The notes under the pieces: model-generated
Told to the model about the DNA's origin: nothing
The model's database searches: none
Seen by the model: only the letters and a program-made list of their open reading frames with translations
Translations under genes and position numbers: made by a program
Shown: positions 8,596-62,020 of the stretch, piece after piece
How positions within the stretch are numbered: the stretch's first letter is position 1
Layout: the number at the start of each line of letters is the position of its first letter
NCBI RefSeq assembly: GCF_014639535.1
Contig: NZ_BMGA01000008.1
Coordinates: 62,001 to 126,000, forward strand
Direction of reading: 5' to 3'
From: Flavobacterium palustre
GTDB taxonomy: Bacteria; Bacteroidota; Bacteroidia; Flavobacteriales; Flavobacteriaceae
Length of the DNA: 64,000 nt

Positions 8596-8741
8596 ATTGC
8601 AGGTAACGTCCTGTGGCTTTGCGAAGTTTGGGGATTAGTTCTCCCAAAACTAACAATTTAAGATAAGGTTTACAAATATAAAACCAACTTTAAATTAAGC
8701 CTTAAAGCCCAAATTTCGCAAAACCACTGTTAGCAAACGTT
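8596..8741 (-). repeat. attC-like palindrome E1
   Basis: Imperfect 146-bp palindrome directly downstream of the 8746-9612 gene. Stem arms are GTGGCTTTGCGAAGTTTGGG (from 8613) and the matching arm at 8707-8728, which read as complements shows GTGGTTTTGCGAAATTTGGG. The outer ends are AAC (8605-8607) and GTT (8729-8731). Between AAC and the stem there are 5 nt on the left and 1 nt on the right, the asymmetry shared by E2-E7. Read on the minus strand, its opening AAAAACGTTTGCTAAC matches the complement of the start of its own cassette (9612-9628) at 15 of 16 positions. Confidence 0.8.
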
Positions 8742-8745
8742 TTTG

Positions 8746-9612
8746 TTATATATCTTTCCAAGTTTCAATATGAACTTTATCTTTTAAATCAAAGGAATCA
8801 TATTTTTCAACATTTTCATTATAAAGTAACTTAAGATTCCAAATTAATCTTGAAGTCAACATCTTATTTATATCCAAAATTAAAGAAATAGTTTCTACTT
8901 TAGAATTAGGGTTTATTACTCTGCAATAATGCTGACGATCGCTTATGTACTCTGAATGCGCATAGTTTGAATAAATTGACCACATTTGATCTATCCTTGA
9001 TTTTTGAATTCCACTTCTCTCAAACAATTGCTTGCTTTCTATAAGTTTTGCATATCTTGGATTTAAGTATTCTTTTTTCTTAGTTTCGTTAGCTTGTTGA
9101 AATAAGTTAGATTGTTTAATAGCGTCAATAGCTTCTTCTATTTCTAATTTTATCTTCTTTCGACTATTTTCTGTATCAATAAAATCTGCTGAAATCTCAA
9201 AGTTGTTCTGCTTTTGTAAAGCATGCAACTTGTAAATATTTAACCTAAAATCTTTAATTTCGTCTTCAACCTTATCAAAAACTAAATAAAATAAAATTAA
9301 AAATGTTTCGATTTGCATTCTAGTTATAGAGTTAAGAGAATCAATATCAATTGAGTTAATTTCCTTATCTAAAATTTTCACTTTAGTTCCTTTAATTAAA
9401 GAGATTATCGAATTATTTGCAAATGCAAAACGATAAGCTTTTGCTTCCAATATTGACTGATGACTTTTAATTTGAATTCTCCTTTCAAAAGGATTATTGG
9501 CTAGTTCAAACAAGCAATTAGTCATCGAAGAAAAGAAGTCGATTTTTTTTCCGATATCATTAGTATTTTCTGCAAAATACAATTCTGCATAATGTTTATT
9601 GCGGTCGTCCAT
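8746..9612 (-). CDS. Unknown protein carried as a lone cassette
   Basis: I do not recognise this 288-aa soluble protein. It is rich in Lys, Ile and Asn, looks mostly helical, and lacks a signal peptide or membrane segment. A motif near the C-terminus, MWSIYSNYAHSEYISDRQHY, is the most conserved-looking part. A longer frame begins at 9663, but its first 17 codons run through the palindromic element B1; the ATG at 9612 (MDDRNKHYAEL), just after the cassette junction, is the likely start. The gene sits between B1 (9626-9703) on its 5' side and E1 (8596-8741) on its 3' side, so the unit is a single cassette of about 1,020 bp. Composition is more AT-rich than the glycosidase genes around it, consistent with acquisition. 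Confidence 0.75.
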   Translation of the reverse strand: MDDRNKHYAELYFAENTNDIGKKIDFFSSMTNCLFELANNPFERRIQIKSHQSILEAKAYRFAFANNSIISLIKGTKVKILDKEINSIDIDSLNSITRMQIETFLILFYLVFDKVEDEIKDFRLNIYKLHALQKQNNFEISADFIDTENSRKKIKLEIEEAIDAIKQSNLFQQANETKKKEYLNPRYAKLIESKQLFERSGIQKSRIDQMWSIYSNYAHSEYISDRQHYCRVINPNSKVETISLILDINKMLTSRLIWNLKLLYNENVEKYDSFDLKDKVHIETWKDI

Positions 9613-9625
9613 AAAAATGTTTGCT

Positions 9626-9703
9626 AACTTGTATATACTTGCTACAAAGTAGCGCCTATACACTCCAAACAGGATAGATTGTCGCTACTTTAATAGTATA
9701 TTC
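9626..9703 (-). other. attI-like element B1
   Basis: Palindromic element with arms TATACTTGCTACAAAGTAGCG (from 9634) and a complementary arm ending at 9700. It matches B2 (45629-45707), which lies beside the recombinase, at roughly 48 of the first 57 positions with no gap. The junction AAC (9626-9628) marks the cassette start; on the minus strand GTT is preceded by AAGTATATACAA. No recombinase gene is near this copy. Confidence 0.7.
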
Positions 9704-9806
9704 TTTTTTGCTAAAGTATAGATAATTCTTATAAAAACGACTATTGACTTAATTGTTTTTGTATAATTTCTCTTAAGGTGTAAAAGACATTAGAATCAAG
9801 AAAACA

Positions 9807-37847: not shown

Positions 37848-38007
37848 GTTTTTATACGTTATGACAATAGTTTAATTGATTTATTTGTAATAAAAATTAT
37901 GAATGGTTGTTCTAATTGTTAATAGGAATTATGTGTAAAGTCAAAGACATTTGCGTAGCGTTCATAAGGAACTATACTTTGCGGAGTAGTGAGTTTTAGT
38001 GTCATTA

Positions 38008-40593
38008 TTATTTCTTAGAAATTGAGATGTTTAGACTTCTCCGTTTAACCCATTTTTCCAATTCTACTGCCCAAAATACAATACTTGATAGTCCTAAACA
38101 GGTCAATAGTTCAATAAGTGTCAAAGATTGTGTACGGAAAATGTCTTGTAAAAAAGGAACATAAATTACCGCCATTTGTAACCCAAGTGTCAACAGAACT
38201 GCCCCCACCAATTGTTTATTTCCAAAAATGCCTTGACTGAAAAGTGATTTCCAGTCGCTGCGAATAGCCATTGCATGTCCCATTTGTGATATGCTTAAAA
38301 CTGTAAATACCATTGTCATCCATTTCTCATTGCCTGCGTGTCTTGCCCAAGCTTGTGTTCCTATACATATAGCACCCATAAGCAACCCCACCCAAAGAAT
38401 ATGAATGCCCAGACCATCACTGAAAATACTTTCATCTGTTTTGCGTGGCTGACGTTTTAAAATGTTCTCTTCGGCTCCTTCAGATGTAAAAGCAAGTCCG
38501 GGCAAACCGTCTGTAACAAGATTTATCCAAAGAATATGTATTGGAAGAAGCGGAATTGGCAAACCGATAAGAGGCGCAAGGAAAATTGTCCATACCTCAC
38601 CACTGTTGCTTGTCATAGTGTATTTTATGAATTTGCGAATGTTGTCAAAAATTCTACGACCTTCTCGCACTGCTTTTATGATAGTGGCAAAATTATCATC
38701 TAATAAAATCATGTGTGCCGCTTCTTTTGAAACATCAGTACCAGTAATACCCATTGCGATACCAATGTTGGCCCGTTTCAATGCAGGAGCATCATTCACT
38801 CCATCGCCTGTCATCGCAACAAAATGATTTTTCTTTTGCAATGCTTTTACAATATTTAGTTTTTGTTCGGGCGATACACGCGCATATACTTTTATGTATT
38901 CAATCTCTTTTTCAAATTCTTCATCTGTAAAATTAGCAAGTTCAGTTCCTGTAATTATCCTGTCGGTTTTGTGTTGTAAAATCCCTGTTTCGGTGGCAAT
39001 AGCTTTTGCTGTAATAGGATGGTCGCCAGTGATCATAATGGGTGTAATACCTGCTGTGTGGCAATCTGTAATCGCCTGTATGACTTCTTCCCTTGGAGGG
39101 TCAATCATTGCTGCCAAGCCAATAAATTTTAAATTGTTCTCAATGCTCTCTATTGAAATACTCTTGGGTAATTCATCTACGAGTTTTAAGGCATAAGCCA
39201 AAACCCTTTTTCCTTGTTGAGCAAACTTTTCGGTAGCTTCATTTATTTCTTCTGAATTTGCATCCTTACAACTGCTTAAAATATTTTCTACAGCACCTTT
39301 TGTAACAATTAGCCATTGTCCAGCTAAAGGATAAATGGTTGTCATTCGTTTTCGCACCGAATCAAAAGGCAATTCATATTGACGTTTAAAATCTGTCAAC
39401 CATTTTTGGTTGTAATATATGTTTTTTCGGACATATTCAACCAAAGCCACTTCGGTTGGGTCGCCTTTGAGTTGTTTACTTTCATCGGTTATCACATCAT
39501 GGTTCAGTTCCATCGAAAGTAGCAATAGTTGCTCTGCTGTAAACTCATTGATTCCTTCCGTTTTTGGCGAAATCCAACAATCCATAACTGTCATTTTATT
39601 TTGAGTGATGGTTCCTGTCTTATCGGAACAGATGTAAGTAACAGAACCCAATGTTTCAACGGCAGGTAATTTTCGGATGAGTGAATTTTTACGAACCATC
39701 TGTTTCGCACCCAAAGCCAAAGCAATAGTGATAACTGCTGGTAATGCCTCGGGAATGGCAGCTACTGCGACAGAGATGGCGGTGAGCAACATGCGGATAG
39801 GGTCTTCGCCACGCAGCAAACCTCCACCGTAAATAATGGCACAAATAAAAATTACAACAAAAGATAGTTTTTTTCCAAAGTCAGCTAATCGCTTTTGAAG
39901 TGGTGTTTTAGTTTCATCCTCTTGTAGCAGTTGAGCTATCCGACCAATTTCGGTGTCCATACCAGTTGCCACCACAATACCCTCAGCTCTTCCATAAGTT
40001 ACAATTGTTGTTTTGTAAGCCATATTGAATCGGTCGCCTAGCGGTGAGTTTTCCGGGATTATTTCATCTGTGTGTTTTTCTACTGCATTGGATTCTCCGG
40101 TTAATGATGCCTCTTCCACTTTTAAGGAGTAAGTTTCTGTTAAACGAATATCTGCCGGAACCGACATCCCTGCTTCTAGAATTATGATATCACCGGGCAC
40201 TAACTCGGATGCAGCAAGTTGAACAATATTTCCTCCTCTGCGAACCGTAGCAGTAAATGCCGACATTTTTTTCAATGTTTCCATTGCTTTTTCTGCACGG
40301 TATTCCTGCACAAAACCTATGATAGCATTAAGTAACACAATGATTAATATTACAATGGCATCTTTTAAATCGCCCACAGCTAAAGAAATTACAGCTGCTA
40401 ACAGCAGAATAATAACCATTACATCCTTAAACTGATGCATCAATAAAACGAGAATAGAAATTTTCTTTTTTTCTAGTAGTTCGTTTTTACCATATTGTTT
40501 TTGGCGTTCTTCAACTTCTGCTCTATGCAAGCCTTTTTTACTTGTGTTAAACAATTGATAAGTTTCAGAAACGGATAGAAGATGGTTTTTCAT
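38008..40593 (-). CDS. Cation-translocating P-type ATPase (P2A, Ca2+ type)
   Basis: Inner-membrane ion pump of 861 aa. It has the phosphorylation site ICSDKTGTITQNK with D324, the membrane motif AIPEALPAVITI (281-290) that corresponds to the P2A calcium-site motif PEGLP, LTGESNAVEK as the actuator loop, and MTGDGVNDAPALK as the hinge motif. Two N-terminal and six C-terminal membrane helices are visible. The N-terminal 'cation ATPase N' region is present, so it resembles SERCA/PMR1-type pumps rather than heavy-metal pumps. It is a single gene whose promoter region lies next to the distal end of the cassette array. Confidence 0.92.
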   Translation of the reverse strand: MKNHLLSVSETYQLFNTSKKGLHRAEVEERQKQYGKNELLEKKKISILVLLMHQFKDVMVIILLLAAVISLAVGDLKDAIVILIIVLLNAIIGFVQEYRAEKAMETLKKMSAFTATVRRGGNIVQLAASELVPGDIIILEAGMSVPADIRLTETYSLKVEEASLTGESNAVEKHTDEIIPENSPLGDRFNMAYKTTIVTYGRAEGIVVATGMDTEIGRIAQLLQEDETKTPLQKRLADFGKKLSFVVIFICAIIYGGGLLRGEDPIRMLLTAISVAVAAIPEALPAVITIALALGAKQMVRKNSLIRKLPAVETLGSVTYICSDKTGTITQNKMTVMDCWISPKTEGINEFTAEQLLLLSMELNHDVITDESKQLKGDPTEVALVEYVRKNIYYNQKWLTDFKRQYELPFDSVRKRMTTIYPLAGQWLIVTKGAVENILSSCKDANSEEINEATEKFAQQGKRVLAYALKLVDELPKSISIESIENNLKFIGLAAMIDPPREEVIQAITDCHTAGITPIMITGDHPITAKAIATETGILQHKTDRIITGTELANFTDEEFEKEIEYIKVYARVSPEQKLNIVKALQKKNHFVAMTGDGVNDAPALKRANIGIAMGITGTDVSKEAAHMILLDDNFATIIKAVREGRRIFDNIRKFIKYTMTSNSGEVWTIFLAPLIGLPIPLLPIHILWINLVTDGLPGLAFTSEGAEENILKRQPRKTDESIFSDGLGIHILWVGLLMGAICIGTQAWARHAGNEKWMTMVFTVLSISQMGHAMAIRSDWKSLFSQGIFGNKQLVGAVLLTLGLQMAVIYVPFLQDIFRTQSLTLIELLTCLGLSSIVFWAVELEKWVKRRSLNISISKK

Positions 40594-40794
40594 TTCAATA
40601 ATGAGTTTTTACTTTGAAAATACTAATACAGGCACTTTGGTAGTTTATGTTAACTCTGCCGATTTACTTGGTAAGAACATACTTTCGAATCCTTTCTACA
40701 CTTTTGTTTATTAGTTGCTTATAAAAAAAGGGTTGTCCTTGTGTTTATTTTTGAATTCAGGTCGGGCCTTTGTCGTTTGTACGGTCGTCCTACC

Positions 40795-40936
40795 ATTGGC
40801 TATAACGGTTTGGGGCTTTGCGAAGTGGCGAACTTCGTAGCGACATATTTTCCACTAAGATAAAATTTATTGAGAAACGTGAACGTGAAACTTACCATAA
40901 AATTAGCAATTGCGAGAAACGGCTGTTACCAGCAGC
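40795..40936 (-). repeat. attC-like palindrome E2 (distal end of array)
   Basis: Ends AAC (40804-40806) and GTT (40925-40927). Left spacer GGTTT, right spacer A, the fixed 5:1 asymmetry. Stem: GGGGCTTTGCGAAGTGGCGA against TCTCGCAATTGCTAATTTTA read as complement; weaker than the others. Its opening on the minus strand, AAGCTGCTGGTAAC, agrees with the complement of its cassette start (AAGTTGCTGGTAAC, at E3) in 13 of 14 positions. Confidence 0.75.
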
Positions 40937-41326
40937 TTAATTTATTTGAACTTTATATTTTATCAGAATTGCTAATGACGATATTATAGAAGGAAGAAAC
41001 ATAACAATCAAAACTATAATCGGCTCATATGAGTCACCAATTCCGTAACTCTTGGAAAAAATAAATGGCGACAGAAACGCAAACACGCATCCAAAAATCA
41101 ATGAAAATATTGCAGTTAATTTTATTATGAGTTTATGTTTAAAATCATTCAATCCAAACGTCCGAGCGTTCCATCCGGTAACAGCCATTCCAATAAATAT
41201 TGCCAAAGTCAAGAATGCAGTAATCTCGAGACTTTCATAAATTAAAATTAGAAATGTTATAAGTGCCATTATTGAATAAAACACAGCTGAAATCCATCCA
41301 AAACTTCGAACTATTTTTTCTTTCAT
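40937..41326 (-). CDS. Cassette 6: small membrane protein of unknown function
   Basis: A 129-aa protein with four hydrophobic segments (YSIMALITFLILIYESLEIT, FLTLAIFIGMAVTG, LTAIFSLIFGCVFAFLSPFI, VLIVMFLPSIISSLAILIKY) and a charged loop between the second and third. I do not recognise the family. It is the most distal cassette. Its stop codon lies directly at the start of E2 and its 5' side begins 75 bp from the junction GTTACCAGCA at E3. Confidence 0.7.
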   Translation of the reverse strand: MKEKIVRSFGWISAVFYSIMALITFLILIYESLEITAFLTLAIFIGMAVTGWNARTFGLNDFKHKLIIKLTAIFSLIFGCVFAFLSPFIFSKSYGIGDSYEPIIVLIVMFLPSIISSLAILIKYKVQIN

Positions 41327-41390
41327 TTTACTTTAATTCTTTCGGCTCATTTTTTTAATGTCGGTTAATCGAGTGGTTTCGTGCGGCCAA

Positions 41391-41532
41391 GTTGCTGGTA
41401 ACGTTCTGGTACTACAGCGGGTTTGGGACTAAATTAAGCCCATTCTTCGGATTTGCCAAATCATTCAGATACAAAACCATTTTTCCATTAAGCCTATTGC
41501 CCAAATCCGTTGTAGTAGCTGTTACCAGCAGT
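41391..41532 (-). repeat. attC-like palindrome E3
   Basis: Ends AAC (41400-41402) and GTT (41521-41523). The arms TGCTGGTAACGTTCTGGTAC and the complement of TAGCTGTTACCAGCA match through TGCTGGTAAC, then show 5-nt versus 1-nt spacing before the stem TACTACAGCGGGTTTGGG against TACTACAACGGATTTGGG. The strongest stem of the set. Its opening (TGCTGGTAAC) matches its own cassette start TGCTGGAAAC, at E4, in 9 of 10 positions. Confidence 0.85.
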
Positions 41533-41534
41533 GA

Positions 41535-41996
41535 TTATTTCTTGACAAACTCTGTCGAAAGATTATTCCCCCAAGGCATAGTTTTCAATATAATTTGTTT
41601 CTCATTCGGCTCAATTTCTAGCCATAATTCGCTTTTTTTAATCGAGTCAAAATCTAGAATTAGTATTGGCGAATCGATTTCTTCAATTTTCCATTTTCCT
41701 TTGCCGGCATTATTATATTGTCTGGATTTATTCAGAGTGAAAGTCTCGTTGTCATAGACAATGAGGATATCTTTTTCTTTTCCGAGATTGTAGTTACCTA
41801 CGATTTTATTTTCCAAATTTAGTTGGAATATAGAAACTAATGCAAGATGAATAAATGGAAGTGCAAGAAAACCTAAGCCTATATAAAGAGTTTTATTTGT
41901 ATTACCTTTTCTAATTTTGAAAATACCGATAAGAGTTAATATTATACCAATCAAAGGACTGATTATGTAAAGTGGGAATGTCCAAAGTGCTTCCAT
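41535..41996 (-). CDS. Cassette 5: small membrane protein of unknown function
   Basis: A 153-aa protein. Two or three N-terminal membrane helices (PLYIISPLIGIILTLIGIF, LYIGLGFLALPFIHLALVSI) are followed by a soluble, presumably exported, lipocalin-like stretch: NKIVGNYNLGKEKDILIVYD and FTLNKSRQYNNAGKGKWKIE, ending NEKQIILKTMPWGNN. That pattern (membrane anchor plus small beta domain) is common among cassette-borne proteins, but I recognise no family. It is bounded by the E4 junction on its 5' side and E3 on its 3' side. Confidence 0.72.
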   Translation of the reverse strand: MEALWTFPLYIISPLIGIILTLIGIFKIRKGNTNKTLYIGLGFLALPFIHLALVSIFQLNLENKIVGNYNLGKEKDILIVYDNETFTLNKSRQYNNAGKGKWKIEEIDSPILILDFDSIKKSELWLEIEPNEKQIILKTMPWGNNLSTEFVKK

Positions 41997-42031
41997 ATTT
42001 TATTTTATCGTAGTATTTTTGGTCTGTATCA

Positions 42032-42170
42032 TTGCTGGAAACGGTTTGCGGCTTTGCGTAGTGGCGGATTTTACCACAAATGTTGATACGAAGCACACAC
42101 TTCAAAGATAGCACAAATGTTCATACGAAGCACGTCACCCGCCATTACGCAAAACCGCTGTTACCTGCTG
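42032..42170 (-). repeat. attC-like palindrome E4
   Basis: Ends AAC (42040-42042) and GTT (42160-42162). Left spacer GGTTT, right spacer A. Stem GCGGCTTTGCGTAGTGGCGG against GCGGTTTTGCGTAATGGCGG, 17 of 20 positions paired. Its opening on the minus strand, GCAGGTAAC, equals the complement of its own cassette start GTTACCTGC (at E5) and differs from the GCTGG variant of its neighbours. The loop holds a 22-bp direct repeat (CACAAATGTTGATACGAAGC at 42075, repeated at 42112). Confidence 0.85.
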
Positions 42171-42269
42171 GGCTTTGTCATGTCGTTTATTTTTTAGTGA
42201 ATTCGCAAAAGCAAAAGCCACAAGCAGATGAACCGCTTATGGCTTCTTGTTAAAATGTTTTTTGCTAAA

Positions 42270-43013
42270 TTATTTGAGCAAATGGTTTACATAACCACCA
42301 TCAACCCAAATGTCTGTACCTGTAATGAAGCTTGCATGGTCAGAAGCTAAGAACAAAATAGTACTCGCTATTTCTTCTGGTTTTCCTACTCTTTTCAAAG
42401 CGGTACCTGATGCCAAATGTGCTTTCACATCGTCATTAGCAACACTGTCTAAGCCTGGTGTGTTTATTGGACCTGGACTTACAATGTTTACTCTTATTTT
42501 TCTATCAGCCAATTCGTTTGCAGCAATTTGGGCAATTTTGTTTACCGCACCTTTTGTTGCAGCATAGGCACTGCTATACATGGTAGCTGCTTGTGCAATT
42601 GTAGATGACGTAAAAAGTACTGAAGACCCGTCAGCCAAATGTGGTATTAATTTTTGTAATGTAAAATACAAGCCTTTTACATTGGTGTTGAACTGAGCAT
42701 CGAAATCGGCTTCCGAGGTCATTGCAATGGGTGAAAATATGGCTATACCTGCATTTAAGAATAGTATATCAATTTTATTTCCACTTTCTGCAATTGCCTT
42801 TTCTAAAACTGCAATTCCTGTCAAATTCGAAATATCAGAAACCACTGTTTTCAGCAATGGGCTGTTAATTTGCGATGCTGCTTCTTTTAGGTTTTCGGTA
42901 CTTCTACCTGTTATCCAAACACTTGCTCCTGCATTGATGAATGCTTTTGCGGTGGCAAATCCAATTCCTTTGGTGCCGCCTGTCACTAATACATTTTTGT
43001 TTTTAAAATCCAT
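42270..43013 (-). CDS. Cassette 4: SDR family oxidoreductase
   Basis: A 247-aa NAD(P)-dependent short-chain dehydrogenase. Rossmann motif NVLVTGGTKGIGFATAKAF, NADPH-specific ITGRSTENL, the NNAG-equivalent LNAGIAIFSP, and the catalytic Ser plus YxxxK in SAYAATKGAVN with an Ala before Tyr's partner (Tyr-Ala-Ala-Thr-Lys). C-terminal GTDIWVDGGYVNHLL closes the fold. The substrate is unknown. It is divergent from the HxlR regulator gene in the same cassette; SDR/HxlR pairs of this kind are common, with the regulator responding to a reactive electrophile or quinone. Confidence 0.93.
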   Translation of the reverse strand: MDFKNKNVLVTGGTKGIGFATAKAFINAGASVWITGRSTENLKEAASQINSPLLKTVVSDISNLTGIAVLEKAIAESGNKIDILFLNAGIAIFSPIAMTSEADFDAQFNTNVKGLYFTLQKLIPHLADGSSVLFTSSTIAQAATMYSSAYAATKGAVNKIAQIAANELADRKIRVNIVSPGPINTPGLDSVANDDVKAHLASGTALKRVGKPEEIASTILFLASDHASFITGTDIWVDGGYVNHLLK

Positions 43014-43043
43014 TTCTTTACTTATTTTAAATTTTTAATGGCA

Positions 43044-43094
43044 CAAAATTATAACAGGTAAGTTATTTTAAGTAACTTTGTACTTAAAAATAAC
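43044..43094. promoter_or_regulatory. Divergent promoters and HxlR operator of cassette 4
   Basis: An imperfect palindrome GTTATTTTAAGTA (43062-43074), ACTTTG, TACTTAAAAATAAC (43081-43094) lies between the SDR and hxlR-like genes; the arms match except for one extra T. TAnnTTTG boxes occur for both directions: TAACTTTG (43073-43080, plus) and TAATTTTG (43051-43044, minus). The plus-strand box is inside the palindrome, so binding would repress at least hxlR. Confidence 0.7.
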
Positions 43095-43125
43095 AGTAAC
43101 ATCGGTGTAACAAAGTAACATTATT

Positions 43126-43479
43126 ATGTGCCTAACAAAAGATTTCGGACAGAAACACAAGACAGAAATGAGAGCCATTCAAGATTCTATGGATGTGTTA
43201 AATGGAAAGTGGGTAATACCTATTATTTCATCAATATGCTTTTATGAAACAAGAAGATTTTCGGACATTTTAAATGATATTGATGGGATTTCAAACAGAA
43301 TGTTGAGCAAAGAATTAAAGGCTTTGGAAGTGAACAAATTAGTAAAAAGAACCATTTTGGATACACAGCCCATTTCTGTGCAATATGAACTTACAGAGCA
43401 TGGTAGAACATTGCAAACGATTATCAATAACCTAACAGTATGGGGTATTTCGCACAGGAAGGAAATTATTGGTCAATAA
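43126..43479 (+). CDS. Cassette 4: HxlR-family transcriptional regulator
   Basis: A 117-aa winged-helix protein of the HxlR/MarR-like group. Landmarks: IQDSMDVLNGKWVIPIISSI, RFSDILNDIDGISNRMLSKE, LKALEVNKLVKRTILDTQPI, VQYELTEHGRTLQTIINNLT. An N-terminal Cys (MCLTKDFG) near the HTH may be redox-active, as in HypR/YodB-type sensors, although the family commonly has it at a slightly different spot. It is the only array gene on the plus strand. It probably regulates itself and the SDR gene through the palindrome at 43062-43094. Confidence 0.92.
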   Translation: MCLTKDFGQKHKTEMRAIQDSMDVLNGKWVIPIISSICFYETRRFSDILNDIDGISNRMLSKELKALEVNKLVKRTILDTQPISVQYELTEHGRTLQTIINNLTVWGISHRKEIIGQ

Positions 43480-43527
43480 AATTCTACAATACATATTCGA
43501 TGTTTCAAGTAGTCTTCGGTTTTAGCC

Positions 43528-43670
43528 TTGCAGGTAACGTTCTGGCGCTACACGAGGTTTGGGATTAAAGATGCGAGGTTTTTCGGTTAAACACAAATTT
43601 CCCAAATACAAAAATCATCTATAAATTCAGCCTAATGCCCAAATCTCGTGTAACGGCTGTTACCAGCAGT
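43528..43670 (-). repeat. attC-like palindrome E5
   Basis: Ends AAC (43536-43538) and GTT (43659-43661). Left spacer GTTCT, right spacer A. Stem GGCGCTACACGAGGTTTGGG against GCCGTTACACGAGATTTGGG, 17 of 20 paired. Its opening TGCTGGTAAC equals the complement of its own cassette start GTTACCAGCA (at E6), whereas its other end carries GTTACCTGCA, matching the next cassette's palindrome (E4). Confidence 0.85.
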
Positions 43671-44218
43671 TATTTTGTTTCAATTATTGTAAGTTTTGCT
43701 TTTTCGTATTCCTTTTTCCTTATTTTCCTTTCGCTTTTGGTTTCATAACCTGCAGGTAATAAAGTGTTATATCTCTCATCACTTAATAACCATAATTTAT
43801 ATTTTTCTTGAAATTTTTCAGTGCCAACAGATTGTATAAATGGCAAGTAGAACTCTACGAAATTTGTATTATTTTCACAGGTGCTCATTAAGCAATTTTG
43901 ATAGTAGAATCCTATATAATTAACAATAATTAGTTCAATTCTGTCTGCTATAATTATTGCGATTTCGCCTTTTGTTAAATTTCGTCCAATACATTCAGAT
44001 TTTACATTCGTTATAGTTTGGTCTGTAAAAAAATCTGCAAGAGTTGGTAATAATTTAGTTTTATATTCTATAATTTTTTTGGCTGGTTCAGTTTTGCTTA
44101 TTTCTTTAGAGTCATTTGTTTTCACAATTTCGTTTAATAAAGAGTCTATTTCAATTTTGTTTTGAGATAAAACTAAGTTGAAACTAAAAATTAAAACTAA
44201 AAGCAAAACATTCTTCAT
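43670..44218 (-). CDS. Cassette 3: secreted protein of unknown function
   Basis: A 182-aa protein with a signal peptide (MKNVLLLVLIFSFNLVLSQ), so probably periplasmic. Landmarks: KTKLLPTLADFFTDQTITNV, CIGRNLTKGEIAIIIADRIE, and YQNCLMSTCENNTNFVEFYL with three Cys that could form disulfides. The C-terminus is lysine-rich (KSERKIRKKEYEKAKLTIIE). I recognise no family; a resemblance to small secreted immunity or chaperone-like proteins cannot be substantiated. Its stop codon is the first base beyond E5. Confidence 0.72.
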   Translation of the reverse strand: MKNVLLLVLIFSFNLVLSQNKIEIDSLLNEIVKTNDSKEISKTEPAKKIIEYKTKLLPTLADFFTDQTITNVKSECIGRNLTKGEIAIIIADRIELIIVNYIGFYYQNCLMSTCENNTNFVEFYLPFIQSVGTEKFQEKYKLWLLSDERYNTLLPAGYETKSERKIRKKEYEKAKLTIIETK

Positions 44219-44238
44219 AGATGCTATTTTTCTTATAA

Positions 44239-44380
44239 TTGCTGGTAACGTCCTGTGGCTTTGCGACAGCTGCGGAAATTGGAACTGAGTACACTAGGCT
44301 GGACTGAACGAAGTTATGAAAATAAAAACGAACTTTTACAACTGAAATAGCAGTTGCGCAAAACCGCTGTTGTGCGCCGT
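44239..44380 (-). repeat. attC-like palindrome E6
   Basis: Ends AAC (44247-44249) and GTT (44369-44371). Left spacer GTCCT, right spacer A. Stem GTGGCTTTGCGACAGCTGC against GCGGTTTTGCGCAACTGC. Its opening GGCGCACAAC is the exact complement of its own cassette start GTTGTGCGCC at E7, while its other end (GTTACCAGCA) is unrelated to that and matches E5's opening. Confidence 0.85.
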
Positions 44381-44863
44381 TTAAGACTTTTTCAAGCTTC
44401 TATTTTTATAGATTTTTAATAAATAATTTAGCTTTTGGCTACTAATATTCAACTCGTTTAAAAAGATTTCTTCCTTACCGTTAGAAGTATTAAGAACTAA
44501 ATAATCTTTCGATTGTGAAGAAGAAGAATAGTTCGGTCTACTGATAAATTCAAAAGTCTCAATTTTCGACCAAGTTATAAATTTATTGCTTTTTATTTGA
44601 ATTCCTTTGTCATTTAGTTTGAGACAAACTTTTGATTCAGTTTTACTTTCTTTTACATTTGAGTATAAAGCATACGTTAGGTAAATTAAGATTAGAAAAC
44701 ATAATATTTTGTAGCTTACAGAAAAGTTAGAAAAAATAGCAACTAAGCATAACACGATATAAACTATTCCGCCAAAGATTTGAAAATAACTATAACTTTT
44801 AGATAAGCTAATTATCGTTTCTTCTGGTGCTTTTGTATTTTCCTCAAATAAACTTTTTAGCAT
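44381..44863 (-). CDS. Cassette 2: membrane protein with PH-like C-terminus
   Basis: A 160-aa protein with two membrane helices (IFGGIVYIVLCLVAIFSNF, SYKILCFLILIYLTYALYS) followed by a ~70-residue soluble part: VCLKLNDKGIQIKSNKFITW, SKIETFEFISRPNYSSSSQS and LVLNTSNGKEEIFLNELNIS. This layout matches bacterial PH-like/bPH domains attached to a two-helix anchor, seen in many small membrane proteins of unknown role. The assignment to that fold is by pattern, not by a recognised family. The cassette spans about 640 bp. Confidence 0.72.
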   Translation of the reverse strand: MLKSLFEENTKAPEETIISLSKSYSYFQIFGGIVYIVLCLVAIFSNFSVSYKILCFLILIYLTYALYSNVKESKTESKVCLKLNDKGIQIKSNKFITWSKIETFEFISRPNYSSSSQSKDYLVLNTSNGKEEIFLNELNISSQKLNYLLKIYKNRSLKKS

Positions 44864-44878
44864 AAACGTGATTATAAA

Positions 44879-45023
44879 TGGCGCACAACGTTTCGCGGCT
44901 CACTCGAAGTCGGTTGGGTTATGAAACCGAGTACTCTCCGCTGCGACTAAAGGTAATAAGAAAACGTGAACTTGAATCTTCGGCTTAACCAACCGATTGC
45001 GAGTAGCCGCTGTTGTGCGACGT
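44879..45023 (-). repeat. attC-like palindrome E7 (first after attI-like B2)
   Basis: Ends AAC (44887-44889) and GTT (45012-45014). Left spacer GTTTC, right spacer A. Stem GCGGCTCACTCGAAGTCGGT against GCGGCTACTCGCAATCGGTT with one bulged base. Its opening GTCGCACAAC equals the complement of its own cassette start GTTGTGCGAC at B2; its other end reads GTTGTGCGCC, so the one-base difference tracks the correct partner. Confidence 0.85.
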
Positions 45024-45028
45024 TATTA

Positions 45029-45604
45029 TTATTGCCAAACATTAAAATTTGCCTTTATCAAATTGATAATCTCATTGTAAGCGTTTAACTCATCTACATC
45101 TGGAGATTGTTTTAAATAAATTTCATAGTTATCGAATTGAATCGTATTGATTTCTTTCAAATTTCTATAGTAAAGTTTGTACCCAATTCCATCCATAACG
45201 CCTAATGTCGTTGTTTCTACTACATATCCATATTTTTCGTCAAACACAACTCTCGGTTTTTGAATTTTGTAATCAATCTCCCGAATACTCGGCAACTTTT
45301 TGATATTGATGATATAAAACTGTAACCATAGATATTCAAAATTACTTTTTGGAGTTATTACGGTTTCGTCAAATGTTGTTAGGTCGTTTCTAAAATGATA
45401 AAGAATTGCGCTCCAATTCTTTTCATCAACCTTGTAAAATCTAAATAATTCGGTGCCTGTGGTTATTTGGTAGCTTTTGTAAACCCGAATTTCTTTGCTG
45501 GCAAGAGTATCAGGAATGCCCAAACGACTATTGATTTCTGATATGGATTGAGCATTGAATACAATGCTTTTGAGAATCAGGAAAATCAACAGTATTTTTT
45601 TCAT
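45029..45604 (-). CDS. Cassette 1: secreted protein of unknown function
   Basis: A 191-aa protein with a signal peptide (MKKILLIFLILKSIVFNAQS). The rest contains SEINSRLGIPDTLASKEIRV, YKSYQITTGTELFRFYKVDE and IQFDNYEIYLKQSPDVDELN. I recognise no family. A longer frame starts at 45670, but its first 22 codons run through the B2 element and the cassette junction at 45629-45631; the ATG at 45604 lies 25 bp inside the cassette and gives a proper signal peptide. It is the first cassette next to the recombinase, where integrons usually place the newest acquisition. Confidence 0.75.
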   Translation of the reverse strand: MKKILLIFLILKSIVFNAQSISEINSRLGIPDTLASKEIRVYKSYQITTGTELFRFYKVDEKNWSAILYHFRNDLTTFDETVITPKSNFEYLWLQFYIINIKKLPSIREIDYKIQKPRVVFDEKYGYVVETTTLGVMDGIGYKLYYRNLKEINTIQFDNYEIYLKQSPDVDELNAYNEIINLIKANFNVWQ

Positions 45605-45628
45605 TACAATTGGAATATAATGTCGCAC

Positions 45629-45707
45629 AACTAGTATATACTCGCTACAAACTAGCGCATATACACCCAAAAATGGGTAGATTGGCGCTATAAAGTAGCG
45701 TATTGTC
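45629..45707 (-). other. attI-like element B2 between recombinase and first cassette
   Basis: Palindromic element: CTCGCTACAAACTAGCGC (45641-45658) is mirrored by GGCGCTATAAAGTAGCG (45684-45700), and ACCC...TGGGT pairs at the centre. On the minus strand the cassette junction GTT is preceded directly by the perfect 10-bp palindrome AGTATATACT. The same element occurs as B1 at 9626-9703. It starts 26 bp downstream of the recombinase stop codon. B2 lacks the stem-interior design of E1-E7, so it is a different class of site. Confidence 0.7.
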
Positions 45708-45733
45708 CAACAAATGTAAAAATAATAATTGTA

Positions 45734-46777
45734 TTACAAATCATCAAAAGGACTTTTTATTTGTTGAATACTTTTCGTACTAACGTGCGTGTAAATTTCG
45801 GTAGTTTTGCTACTATTATGACCTAATAATTCTTGAATGTATCTCAAATCGGTACCGTTTTCTAGTAAGTGTGTAGCGAAGCTGTGCCTGAGCCAATGCA
45901 AAGTGGCAGGTTTCGTAATTCCCGATTTTTGTAAAGCTTGTTTTAATACCTGTTGGAGACTCCTACTATCATAAGGTTGTCCGCTAATTTGCCCTTCAAA
46001 CAAATATTTTGTGGGTTTAAAGGCGATATAATATTCCCGCAACATTTCTAAAATTTTTGGGGATAATGGAGCAATGCGGTCTTTTTTTCCTTTGGCGTTT
46101 TTCAGTAAAACTAGGTTTCTTTTTGAGTCGATATGAACGGGTTCGAGAGCCAATAATTCGCCACAGCGCAAACCGCAACTATAAATCAACGAAAGCATCA
46201 TTTTGTGTTTGATATTGCTGTGGGCATTCAAAATCAATTTTATCTCTTCTTTACTCAATACATTGGGTAATTGTTTGGCTCGTTTTGGTCGGTGAATTTT
46301 ATCTACCAGCATCTTGGTTTCTCGGATGGTCTGGAAGAATAGTTTAATGGCATTGACGATTTGGTTTTGATAAGAAGCTGATAAATTATTTTTTAAAATA
46401 TACTCATTATTGTACAAAATAACATCTTCATTTGTAATATCGGCAATGGCTTTTTCTCGATAAAATACCAGAAAAGATTTTAAAGCTTCACTATAAGTTA
46501 CAATAGTGCTTTCGCTATAACGTTTGGAACGCATCCATTGTTTGAATTTTTCTATTTGTATTTGTGCTTCTTCTGAAGGAATGGTATATGCTATTGGCGT
46601 TATTTTGAACCGAACTCTGTTTTCTTCGGTATCCGGAATATGCCATGCCATAAGTGTTTGACTCCATCGGGCGCCGTTAATTTTTTTGATGCGCTCAATC
46701 AAGCCGGCATTTTTTTCAAAATAGACAGCAATTCTATTTTCTCCTTTGTGTTTAATAGGTTTAGCAGACCATTTCAT
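45734..46777 (-). CDS. Tyrosine recombinase of the cassette array (IntI-like C-terminus)
   Basis: A 347-aa site-specific recombinase. Three parts: an extra N-terminal domain (1-70, MKWSAKPIKHKGENRIAVYF), a core-binding domain (about 72-165, FKQWMRSKRYSESTIVTYSE) and the catalytic domain (170-345) with R204 (CGLRCGELL), K around 229-232 (KGKKDR), H294 and R297 (TLHWLRHSFATHLL), H320 (LLGHNS) and nucleophile Y329 (TEIYTHVS). SGITKPATLHWLRHSFATHL and the ending KSPFDDL are strikingly like the corresponding parts of class 1 IntI (GITKPATPHTLRHSFA, RSPLDAL). It lacks the ~16-20 residue IntI-specific insertion before that region. It transcribes toward the array, with B2 next to its 3' end. It could therefore be a cassette recombinase or a Xer/phage-type enzyme that merely sits there. 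Confidence 0.9.
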   Translation of the reverse strand: MKWSAKPIKHKGENRIAVYFEKNAGLIERIKKINGARWSQTLMAWHIPDTEENRVRFKITPIAYTIPSEEAQIQIEKFKQWMRSKRYSESTIVTYSEALKSFLVFYREKAIADITNEDVILYNNEYILKNNLSASYQNQIVNAIKLFFQTIRETKMLVDKIHRPKRAKQLPNVLSKEEIKLILNAHSNIKHKMMLSLIYSCGLRCGELLALEPVHIDSKRNLVLLKNAKGKKDRIAPLSPKILEMLREYYIAFKPTKYLFEGQISGQPYDSRSLQQVLKQALQKSGITKPATLHWLRHSFATHLLENGTDLRYIQELLGHNSSKTTEIYTHVSTKSIQQIKSPFDDL

Positions 46778-46860
46778 AATGAATTGATTTTCTGACTTAA
46801 ATGTACTGAAATAACAATTACAAAAAGCATTGTCAATAGCAATTACAAATTTTATTGAAT

Positions 46861-47012
46861 GCAGGAACCGCGTGAGGGATTACTTCACTAAGTTTTATTT
46901 TTTTGTTGAGTCCAGTGAATTTTATTTGCGGCGGTATCCTCGAAGTGCAACGGAGAGATAAAGCTAAGAGCCCAACCATGACGTAGCGTAGTGGAGGCAG
47001 GGGCACGCCCAC
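46861..47012. repeat. Interspersed flavobacterial repeat
   Basis: Starts GGAACCGCGTGAGGGATTAC and ends GTAGTGGAGGCAGGGGCACG, a GC-rich unit that stands out from the AT-rich surroundings. It is non-coding and resembles dispersed repeats of the genus. The rest of 46778-47117 shows nothing. Confidence 0.6.
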
Positions 47013-47117
47013 TTCTTTAAATATTCTTTAATTTATCACTGTTGCAACTAATTCATGATTTTATAACCGTTGCTATATTTGATAGCAATAGCGCTGACAA
47101 CTTTTTAGAGTTATTTT

Positions 47118-48839
47118 TTATTCCTCAATTTTTTCAGTCTTAAAAATACTAGCCTGTAATAAAGTTGAAAGCACAATCGTCATCATGGCTCCAATAAAAT
47201 TCAGCCATAAGTATCCCAGTTTTTCTTCGCCACTTGGGTAGATAAAAATGGCAAAATAATAAATCACAAAAATGGTCAACTGGCTAATCAAAGCGCTGTA
47301 AAAAATAGCTTTGGCTTTGACAAATTTGATATAAAAGCCCACCAGAAATATTCCCAGTACAGTGCCGTAAAAAATAGAACCTACAATATTGACTAATTGG
47401 ATTAGGTTTTCAAACAGTGTTCCAATACAGGCAAAAAGAATGGCTATAATTCCCCAAAACAAGGTGAAAAATTTAGTAGCATGAAGGTAGTGCTTTTCGG
47501 TTTTGGGTTCTTTTAAATTGCGTTTGTAAATATCGATAGCTGTTGTAGAAGCCAGTGCAGTAAGTCCTGATGCTGTAGAGGACATGGCTGCCGAAATAAT
47601 CACGGCCAGTAATAATCCTATTAAACCTTTAGGCAGATAATGCAGGATGAAGTGAAAGAAAACATAATCCTTATCGTTGGTTTCACTGCCTTTGTCGGCT
47701 TTTAGAATGATTTCTTTGGCATGATCTCTCAGGTCTTTTTCTTTGGTAGAAATCGCTACTAATTCCTTTCTGAGAATCGGGTTGTCATAGTCCTGATTCA
47801 ACTGATCGATGTACAACAAATTGATGACTTTTTTGTCTTCCGAAAGCAGCTCTAATTGTTTTTCCAGGGCGTGGTATTCGTCTTTGTATTTTGATTTTTC
47901 AATAGCCGCCTTGTTGTTGGGATTGAAATTTAAAGGAACAGGATTGAATTGGAAAAAAACAAAAACCATAATTCCTGTCAGCAGTATAAAAAACTGCATC
48001 GGTACTTTTAAAAAACCATTCATAATTAATCCCATCTGGCTTTCGCGAACGGATTTTCCGGATAAATACCTTCCCACTTGCGACTGATCGGTTCCAAAAT
48101 AAGCCAGTGCCAGAAAAAAGCCACCTGTAATTCCGCTCCACAAAGTGTATTTTTCTTCGGGATCAGTAGAGAAATCTACAATATCCATTTTGTCATTAGC
48201 TCCTGCTATGTGCAACGCATTGCTAAAAGTCATGTCGTTAGGCAGAAAATGAAGAATCAGAAAAAAAGTAATAAACATCCCCGACATAATCACAAACATC
48301 TGTTGTTTTTGGGTAACGTTTACCGCTTTTGTCCCACCTGAAAAAGTGTAAATAATTACCAGAATCCCAATAACAATATTCATATAACTCAAATTCCAGC
48401 CCAGTAAAGCCGATAAAATAATGGCCGGAGCATAGATGGTTAGTCCGGTACCGAGTCCTCTTTGGAATAAAAATAAAATAGCCGCAAGCGAACGGGTTTT
48501 TAGGTCAAATCGTTTTTCGAGGTATTCATAAGCAGTGAAAACTTTGAATTTATGATAAATAGGGATAAATGTCAGGCAAATGACGATCATGGCTATGGGT
48601 AACCCAAAATAAAATTGCACAAAGCCCATTCCGTCATGGTAAGCCTGTCCCGGTGTGGATAAAAAAGTAATGGCACTGGCCTGTGTAGCCATTACCGAAA
48701 GTCCTACGGTGTACCAGGGGGTTTCGTTGCTTCCCAGAATAAAATCCTCAACATTTTTACTTCCTTTGGTTTTCCAGGCTCCATACGATACAATAAAGAG
48801 CAGGGTGATAATCAATACAATCCAGTCAAATAATTGCAT
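47118..48839 (-). CDS. Sodium:solute symporter (SSS family)
   Basis: A 573-aa inner-membrane symporter with about 13 helices. Typical SSS text: VGLSVMATQASAITFLSTPG near 48, IYTFSGGTKAVNVTQKQQM near 165 and the core SAAMSSTASGLTALASTTAI near 419. A ~90-residue charged soluble insertion (EKSKYKDEYHALEKQLELLS onward) lies about residues 310-395. The substrate is unknown; relatives transport sugars, sialic acid or inositol. It is followed upstream on the same strand by a 35-aa membrane ORF and by the PIG-L deacetylase, with 3-13 bp gaps, so it forms an operon that suggests uptake of a deacetylated or amino sugar. Confidence 0.93.
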   Translation of the reverse strand: MQLFDWIVLIITLLFIVSYGAWKTKGSKNVEDFILGSNETPWYTVGLSVMATQASAITFLSTPGQAYHDGMGFVQFYFGLPIAMIVICLTFIPIYHKFKVFTAYEYLEKRFDLKTRSLAAILFLFQRGLGTGLTIYAPAIILSALLGWNLSYMNIVIGILVIIYTFSGGTKAVNVTQKQQMFVIMSGMFITFFLILHFLPNDMTFSNALHIAGANDKMDIVDFSTDPEEKYTLWSGITGGFFLALAYFGTDQSQVGRYLSGKSVRESQMGLIMNGFLKVPMQFFILLTGIMVFVFFQFNPVPLNFNPNNKAAIEKSKYKDEYHALEKQLELLSEDKKVINLLYIDQLNQDYDNPILRKELVAISTKEKDLRDHAKEIILKADKGSETNDKDYVFFHFILHYLPKGLIGLLLAVIISAAMSSTASGLTALASTTAIDIYKRNLKEPKTEKHYLHATKFFTLFWGIIAILFACIGTLFENLIQLVNIVGSIFYGTVLGIFLVGFYIKFVKAKAIFYSALISQLTIFVIYYFAIFIYPSGEEKLGYLWLNFIGAMMTIVLSTLLQASIFKTEKIEE

Positions 48840-61674: not shown

Positions 61675-62020
61675 TAGTTTGTGTTTTTAAAAATTAATTC
61701 GCATTGTCCAATCATTGTAGCTCCTGTTTTGTTAACTTTCTGCGAACACAAATGTTCATTTTCAGATTGATTTCTTCTGCGTAATTTTGGCACAACTGCC
61801 CTATAACTTGTTTATATGTATGACAAAATCATACAAAGCCACCTGGTTTTGTGTAGATATGTATGATAGCAGTCGTACTTTATTTTTTGCTAATATATAA
61901 AAATATCCTACAAAATGATTTATTCCTTAATCATATCCTTTAAGGTTTCGAGCTGGATTTCCAGTTTTCAACTTTGTCAGTGTTTAAGAATCTGGCAGGA
62001 TAGTATAGATGAAAATAAAT
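61675..62020. other. Intergenic region, no gene seen
   Basis: About 345 bp between the small membrane protein start and the pentapeptide protein stop. I found no ORF or stem. Confidence 0.5.

Follow-up and report, generated by a model that had tools for sequence, protein, structure and literature searches.

A chromosomal cassette array with integron-like organization beside a tyrosine recombinase predicted to lack the I2 insertion in Flavobacterium palustre

A stretch of 64,000 nucleotides (nt) from Flavobacterium palustre (RefSeq assembly GCF_014639535.1, contig NZ_BMGA01000008.1, positions 62,001 to 126,000 of the forward strand; hereafter the window) carries an array of six gene cassettes on the minus strand, directly downstream of a gene for a tyrosine recombinase (hereafter the integrase) on the same strand. 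The array region lies on contig C8 of a 3.97-Mb genome assembled into 36 contigs. The array, an attI-like site at its head and the integrase very probably form a system for gene capture in the chromosome that functions like an integron, with the integrase as its proposed recombinase. Such integron-like working is strongly supported by the anatomy of the locus, by a rule that ties each cassette start to the palindrome at the end of the same cassette (the own-palindrome rule), by covariation in the stems of the palindromes, by attI-like sites, by the co-occurrence of sites and integrases and by cassettes shared between genomes. The system does not belong to the IntI integron family, judged by its integrase, which appears to lack the I2 insertion (I2-less), and by the R boxes of its sites. 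A first reading of the window from its letters alone (the sequence-only reading) had placed six cassettes on this stretch. They lie where it had put them, on the minus strand, but the first boundary (A^GTT) is at 45631, and 45632–45733 is the attI-like site. It had also let one gene end at each palindrome, whereas cassette 4 holds two genes on opposite strands, and it had missed the adjoining I2-less integrase, the attI-like site, the attI-like sites dispersed in the genome and the spread of the system through the phylum.

The start of each cassette is the reverse complement of the opening of its own palindrome, as the sequence-only reading had claimed. In the window, own starts and own openings match at 10, 10, 10, 9, 9 and 10 of 10 letters in cassettes 1–6 (58/60). 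This is the maximum among all 720 pairings of starts and palindromes, and it is reached by six pairings because three palindromes have an identical opening. The starts match the directly preceding palindrome at 9, 5, 9, 7 and 10 of 10 letters (five cases), and within the window the distinction between own and neighbouring palindromes is weak, with few informative cases. The rule was tested on related loci as well, independently of the pairing used in the covariance model described below. In 148 cassettes of 22 arrays (window included; 25 of 209 sites without exact AAC and GTT dropped, neighbours 150–2500 nt apart kept), the own site matches at 6.41 of the 7 letters after GTT and the same-site neighbour at 3.17, while global shuffles reach 3.01 (largest of 1000: 3.33) and shuffles within arrays 3.59 (largest 4.00). 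In a second set of 49 cassettes, which is mostly from outside the genus and includes one plasmid and one further genome of the genus (4 of 103 sites without exact AAC and GTT dropped, neighbours 150–2000 nt apart kept), the own match is 5.55 of 6 letters, the neighbour 3.18 and the shuffled value 2.46 (largest of 1000: 3.06). The sequence-only reading had named random pairs in related genomes as the comparison on which its integron interpretation would stand or fall; own palindromes match far better than such pairs in both sets, and the integron boundary rule that it had invoked holds in both. The own-palindrome rule is what one would expect if each cassette had once been circular and its hairpin, complete in the circle, had been split at G^TT upon insertion. 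The eighth letter after GTT matches the own palindrome in a fraction of 0.01 of the 148-cassette set and the ninth in 0.91, which looks like an invariant mismatch on the outer border of the R box.

The palindromes share a covarying fold of ~139 nt, which bears out the attC-like fold proposed from the window. A search of the window and of 40 relatives' loci with a covariance model built from the six window sites (R1) gave 211 matches at E<=1, and the best 150 of these matches were used to build a second model (R2). In the R2 alignment, 88.7% of cells pair, compared with 67.1% after shuffling. Because the alignment was fitted to the structure, the counts of compensatory change lean towards it: 607 cells are altered on both sides against 200.1 in shuffles (0/500 as high), and 19 of 21 pairs are altered on both sides against 15.0. 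The covariation signal is lost when the partner is slid by 1–3 columns. R2 was applied at E<=0.01 to three sets of loci, in which it finds 105, 104 and 103 sites. When site S3 was compared by BLAST with plasmid and phage sequences, there were zero matches, which is uninformative, as the plasmid collection contains a Chryseobacterium array that the covariance model finds.

The top-strand consensus of the sites consists of seven variable letters, AAC, A, GCNGYT..CG, a loop, CG..AAGCNGC, five letters ending in C, GTT and seven variable letters. The spacer is asymmetric: in the commonest register (149 sites), it measures 1 nt on one side and 5 nt on the other. An A located 15 nt after AAC is 97% conserved. 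The fifth stem pair is usually a G-T wobble on the top strand (156/283), where the bottom strand would have an A-C mismatch. The R boxes are free, with 164 distinct 7-mers among 283 sites. GTTRRRY fits 21 of the 283, where chance gives about 1 in 16, and RYYYAAC fits 22; the stems thus depart from the textbook consensus, as had already been remarked for the window. Among 202 sites rebuilt in their circular form, 186 have a better fold on the bottom strand (means −26.7 versus −23.2 kcal/mol), compared with 82 of 277 control stretches inside cassettes. On the bottom strand, the circular form also folds better than the integrated hybrid (183/202), which partly restates the own-end rule. This folding bias would fit use of the bottom strand as a single strand, as in integrons.

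The sequence comparisons suggest that cassettes move as units. When 283 cassette stretches are compared with one another, eight pairs are at least 70% identical over at least 75% of the longer member. These pairs include exact copies inside one array (447 and 918 bp), a pair 97.5% identical between two genomes of one genus, and a pair 92.7% identical between the genus of the window and a genome related to it at phylum level only. Compared in six of the eight pairs, the flanks are at the level of unrelated sequences (0.43–0.55), save two left flanks of 0.79–0.80 that lie in similar preceding sites. Cassette 5 has an 89% identical stretch in another species (L229), inside a five-site array with other neighbours, and a 667-bp stretch of cassette 3 recurs with 94% identity in a third genome (L228), where GCT replaces GTT at the decayed boundary and the site is weak. 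The longest open reading frame of the 283 stretches lies on the integrase strand in 252 and on the opposite strand in 18, and 13 have none of at least 50 amino acids (aa); the median distance from stop codon to boundary is 135 nt. In both orientation and size, the stretches agree with integron cassettes. Matches to the chromosomal neighbours of the array come from loci of the window's own genome alone, which leaves synteny of the platform across species unsupported. The SDR–HxlR pair of cassette 4 (42270–43479) has relatives ~68–70% identical in other genomes of the genus. Because R2 finds zero sites at ten loci matching this pair, it may be a captured chromosomal pair.

The first cassette begins at a conserved attI-like site ~100 nt past the integrase stop codon. 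The start of the first cassette was predicted from its own palindrome, and the boundary was accepted at 5/6 or more matching letters. Such a boundary was obtained in 53 of 55 loci, and 34 of the 53 have a 6/6 match at 60–120 nt from the integrase stop. Two palindromic repeats, a CCC..GGG centre and TATA.ACAA before GTT are kept across loci. The same or a similar arrangement is present in four loci that are truncated by contig ends and have no detected sites (L059, L060, L074, L076). TAnnTTTG, which we take to be the −7 promoter consensus of the phylum Bacteroidota, occurs at +5 to +70 past the integrase stop in 18 of 40 loci, whereas shuffles give a mean of 1.45 (largest of 500: 7).

Further attI-like sites are dispersed in the genome. 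At E<=0.01, R2 finds 20 attC-like sites in the window genome, six of them within the array. The attI-like pattern has nine matches there and a reversed control pattern zero, and seven of the nine are followed within 0.9 kb downstream by an attC-like site on the same strand. Among 35 genomes with an integrase match, attI-like matches occur in 30 and control matches in 0. Two of the further sites lie in the window. One of them precedes a lone cassette whose start matches its own palindrome completely (7/7), a match found upstream of 3 in 300 random AAC positions; site and cassette sit between two large genes that look glycosidase-like by eye. No attC-like site was detected after the other (61807–61910), and the stretch following it is perhaps a decayed cassette. 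The arms of orphan attI-like sites are closer to those of the main attI of their own genome than to those of other genomes: 31 of 76 agree at 9–10 of 10 letters, where permutations give a mean of 11.8 and at most 29 in 5000, and their mean similarity of 6.14 is matched by 1 of 5000 permutations. This test covered 92 of 131 rows, all those of 16 genomes with an identified main attI; 76 of the rows are orphans, and a single orphan lies next to a second integrase. Genomes whose main attI was unmatched or unidentified were left out, and copies of attI within a genome were counted separately. Part of the likeness could stem from shared lineage, with orphans descended from the main site.

The integrase consists of an N-terminal extension of ~70 aa without a Pfam match, a SAM-like domain (~76–154) and a catalytic domain (173–334). 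It contains R204, KGKKDR (229–234), H294, R297, H320 and Y329, residues whose catalytic roles are established in tyrosine recombinases, and R204, H294, R297, H320 and Y329 are invariant in alignments of 11 and 18 sequences. Its dN/dS is 0.06 and 0.07 in two comparisons free of saturation. The distance from KGKKDR to HxLRH is 59 residues, and it is 58–63 in measurable relatives (apart from one artefact of 322), compared with 100 in each of two measured IntI rows. Judged by these alignments, the integrase lacks the I2 insertion. The window genome has seven Phage_integrase matches, and only one integrase of the I2-less type at E<=1e-30. The best NCBIfam match is NF040815, with 218.5 bits just below its curated cut-off of 220. 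Two relatives of the integrase have long N-terminal extensions with no Pfam match above cut-off there (L077 11524–13293, 590 aa; L189 18151–19659, 503 aa). Residues 35–58 of the Chryseobacterium plasmid integrase (L155) give a weak match to DUF5710 (E 0.0025, 17.9 bits, cut-off 26.5), a possible lead to the fold of the extension.

Sites and I2-less integrases occur together. In the window and 60 loci, 310 of 312 sites are located on the integrase strand downstream of the best-matching integrase of the locus, and two are on the other strand; because the stretches reached further downstream than upstream, strand is the fairer part of this count. In 80 named loci of relatives, which are mostly from Bacteroidota with several from Flavobacterium, R2 gives 53 sites, spread over 19 loci; of these sites, 49 lie on the integrase strand and downstream of the integrase. 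The Chryseobacterium plasmid carries an integrase 68.6% identical to that of the window together with four sites. Its array also contains a group II intron reverse transcriptase (L155 21765–23081); group II introns are known from attC sites in integrons. R2 finds no sites in the 33 most distant loci (L294–L326), two of which are from Bacteroidota and 31 of which, from outside the phylum, served as the control (442,034 bases). The phylum was sampled with 296 genomes. At E<=1e-4, at least 126 of them contain sites, representing at least 75 of 139 genera, and at E<=1e-45 at least 94 contain the integrase, both being lower bounds as few candidates were scored per genome. Sites are present in 76 of the 94 genomes with the I2-less integrase and in 50 of the 202 without it (odds ratio 12.8). 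Canonical IntI, represented by TIGR02249 at E<=1e-60, is found in 85 of the 296 genomes, 84 of them above the cut-off and none in the family of the window; sites are present in 25 of these 85 and in 101 of the other 211 (odds ratio 0.45). Both ratios are uncorrected for kinship of the genomes. Site-bearing are 58 of 69 genomes with the I2-less integrase only, 7 of 60 with canonical IntI only and 43 of 142 with neither. The 84 genomes with canonical IntI exceed what the few complete integrons in the available text of PMC9024848 would suggest.

In the proposed mechanism, the integrase would recombine the attC-like hairpins with the attI-like site ~100 nt beyond its own gene and would use the further attI-like sites of the genome likewise. 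A circular cassette would bear a complete hairpin, the outer arms of which are its two ends. A crossover at G^TT in attI would place the cassette first, beside a presumably active candidate promoter. The same crossover would part the two outer arms and leave each with its own cassette, from which the own-palindrome rule would follow. The hairpins probably act single-stranded, with the bottom strand preferred. In place of I2, the asymmetric spacer, the conserved A of the stem region or the N-terminal region of the integrase may serve to discriminate strands or to block second-strand exchange. There is about an even chance that such arrays represent a second, separately evolved kind of integron, in which an Xer-like I2-less integrase captures single-stranded hairpin cassettes and feeds many chromosomal attI platforms with arms suited to it.

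Several observations weigh against an integron-like system driven by this integrase. An I2-less integrase is unexpected, given that the available text of PMC7790495 reports I2 to be necessary for capture by IntI. A first-cassette boundary is missing in 2 of the 55 loci; of the 53 that have one, 19 show a weaker match or a distance from the stop outside 60–120 nt, although long distances may be chance matches. In the window genome, 2 of 9 attI-like sites have no attC-like site and 5 of 20 attC-like sites have no nearby attI-like match, and the top-strand folds of sites S2 and S6 are no better than those of shuffles. Across the phylum, 50 of the 126 site-bearing genomes have no integrase of this family at E<=1e-45 and 18 of the 94 integrase genomes have no site; because the genomes are mutually related, p-values from genome counts are not those of independent trials. 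In a tree of 114 recombinases, array-linked integrases do not form one clade (15 label changes), and 27 of the 114 have no downstream site, some being at a contig edge and some being other recombinases.

Some of these points would also be explained if a genuine cassette array were moved by another recombinase, either XerC/XerD or another of the seven of the genome, with the adjacent gene as a passenger. The site-bearing genomes without a detected integrase, the number of Phage_integrase matches and the absence of I2 from the adjacent integrase are all in its favour, but it leaves aside the near-fixed distance between attI-like site and integrase stop in 34 of 53 loci, the shared orientation of sites and integrase, the odds ratio of 12.8 and the likeness of orphan attI arms to the main attI of the same genome. 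This explanation is therefore unlikely.

An ordinary IntI integron that the models merely score low would have the same architecture. The integrase matches TIGR02249 (integron integrase) with 200.8 bits in two stretches, where the cut-off is 265, and it aligns with the IntI4 structure 2a3v in two blocks. However, residues 184–244 of IntI4 stand opposite only residues 254–271 of the query. The alignment of 114 recombinases has 42 columns that all 30 IntI rows fill and that 52 of the 54 array-linked integrases leave empty, the other two having 3 and 5 residues there; since these columns were chosen as sparse outside IntI, the count restates the difference and does not test it. A quick maximum-likelihood tree of these recombinases, rooted at its midpoint, with SH-aLRT as its only support measure and with long branches flagged, unites the 30 IntI rows in a single clade (support 100), and no array-linked integrase, that of the window included, falls inside it. 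R2 finds zero sites in 30 loci of canonical IntI genes from the same phylum, covered within ~1.5 kb or less on either side. This makes an ordinary IntI integron highly improbable, and the suggestion in the sequence-only reading of a possible separate family is upheld by an integrase that appears to be without I2 and lies outside the IntI clade.

It is very unlikely that the palindromes are terminators or dispersed gene-end repeats without recombination: they follow stop codons, most of them fold and isolated copies exist in the genome, but terminators do not make cassette starts match their own distant palindromes, whole cassettes recur with unrelated flanks, and an Rfam search of 38000–48000 gave zero matches.

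Table 1 Features of the array and of the further attI-like sites in the window (positions in the window)
Feature	Positions	Strand	Remarks
Integrase	45734..46777	-	tyrosine recombinase of 347 aa
Candidate Bacteroidota -7 promoter element	45711..45718	-	TACATTTG; Pc-like, pointing into the array
attI-like site	45632..45733	-	repeats CGCTA..TAGCG (45686-45700, 45643-45657) flank CCCATTTTTGGG; TATATACTA precedes GTT
Cassette 1	44889..45630	-	boundaries G^TT; listed open reading frame 45029-45670 starts upstream of the boundary; no family match
attC-like site S1	44880..45021	-	
Cassette 2	44249..44888	-	open reading frame 44381-44863, without Pfam match
attC-like site S2	44240..44378	-	
Cassette 3	43538..44248	-	open reading frame 43670-44218
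attC-like site S3	43529..43668	-	
Cassette 4	42042..43537	-	SDR oxidoreductase 42270-43013 (-) and HxlR regulator 43126-43479 (+)
attC-like site S4	42033..42169	-	
Cassette 5	41402..42041	-	open reading frame 41535-41996
attC-like site S5	41393..41530	-	
Cassette 6	40806..41401	-	open reading frame 40937-41326, without family match
attC-like site S6	40797..40934	-	final site of the array; weak fold
Second attI-like site	9628..9733 (upstream end approximate)	-	without integrase; arms CGCTA..TAGCA versus CGCTA..TAGCG in the main site; G of GTT at 9628
Lone cassette at the second attI-like site	8607..9627 (lower end approximate)	-	listed open reading frame 8746-9663 (305 aa, without assigned function) starts upstream of the boundary
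attC-like site of the lone cassette	8599..8740	-	own start (7/7) 899 nt upstream
Third attI-like site	61807..61910 (upstream end approximate)	-	arms GTATGA..TCATAC

As far as the available texts of PMC7790495 and PMC4792948 go, I2 is reported to be unique to IntI and required for cassette capture, and its helix is described as the step that opened single-strand cassette recombination. Arrays with integron logic beside an I2-less integrase make this account directly testable, and they point either to a living relative of an I2-free ancestor or to an independent solution. A search that calls for the IntI-specific domain together with canonical attC boxes would presumably miss the system, despite its sites in at least 126 of 296 genomes. 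In the part of PMC9024848 available, IntegronFinder 2.0 gave complete integrons in Chlorobi and Ignavibacteriae and, for Bacteroidetes proper, a single one in Salinibacter ruber M1, and Bacteroidota are listed among phyla with integrons in the available texts of PMC8618304 and PMC9668308. No earlier description of the system was found among the open-access papers listed by the searches, bioRxiv and most subscription papers being outside the scope of the search.

Outside evidence comes from Riemerella anatipestifer, where a gene whose 3' region is attC-like and 140 bp long is integrated without flanking homology, for which the authors propose site-specific recombination (PMC13148043, as far as available). 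Compared by description, the two systems are alike in that a 140-bp attC-like 3' region travels with the gene; they differ in that the available account of Riemerella names no integrase. The I2-less integrase is a candidate enzyme family for homology-independent gene uptake in Riemerella. An ‘integron-like’ subgroup of tyrosine recombinases has been described in PMC8138268. Compared likewise by description, it differs in that the available text ties no arrays or sites to its insertion-less members.

The integrase resembles XerA/XerC/XerD in its catalytic domain and in its best match NF040815, though this match is under the cut-off, and its relative on the Chryseobacterium plasmid bears the database name ‘site-specific tyrosine recombinase/integron integrase’. 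XerA, XerC and XerD act on short dif-like sites, whereas the window integrase has an adjoining attI-like site, a cassette array and an N-terminal extension.

The likeness to IntI integrons is closest in organization. Both have a tyrosine recombinase beside an attI-like site and an array of mostly single-gene, co-oriented cassettes, with folded attC-like sites, own-end R boxes, a G^TT boundary, stronger folding of the bottom strand and isolated sites elsewhere in the genome. However, the recombinase of the window is apparently without I2, lies outside the IntI clade and has an additional N-terminal region. Its R boxes vary from cassette to cassette and do not follow GTTRRRY/RYYYAAC, and its spacer has 1 nt on one side versus 5 nt on the other. 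Furthermore, the integrase gene points towards the cassettes, an arrangement known from a few integrons, and several attI-like sites are present per genome.

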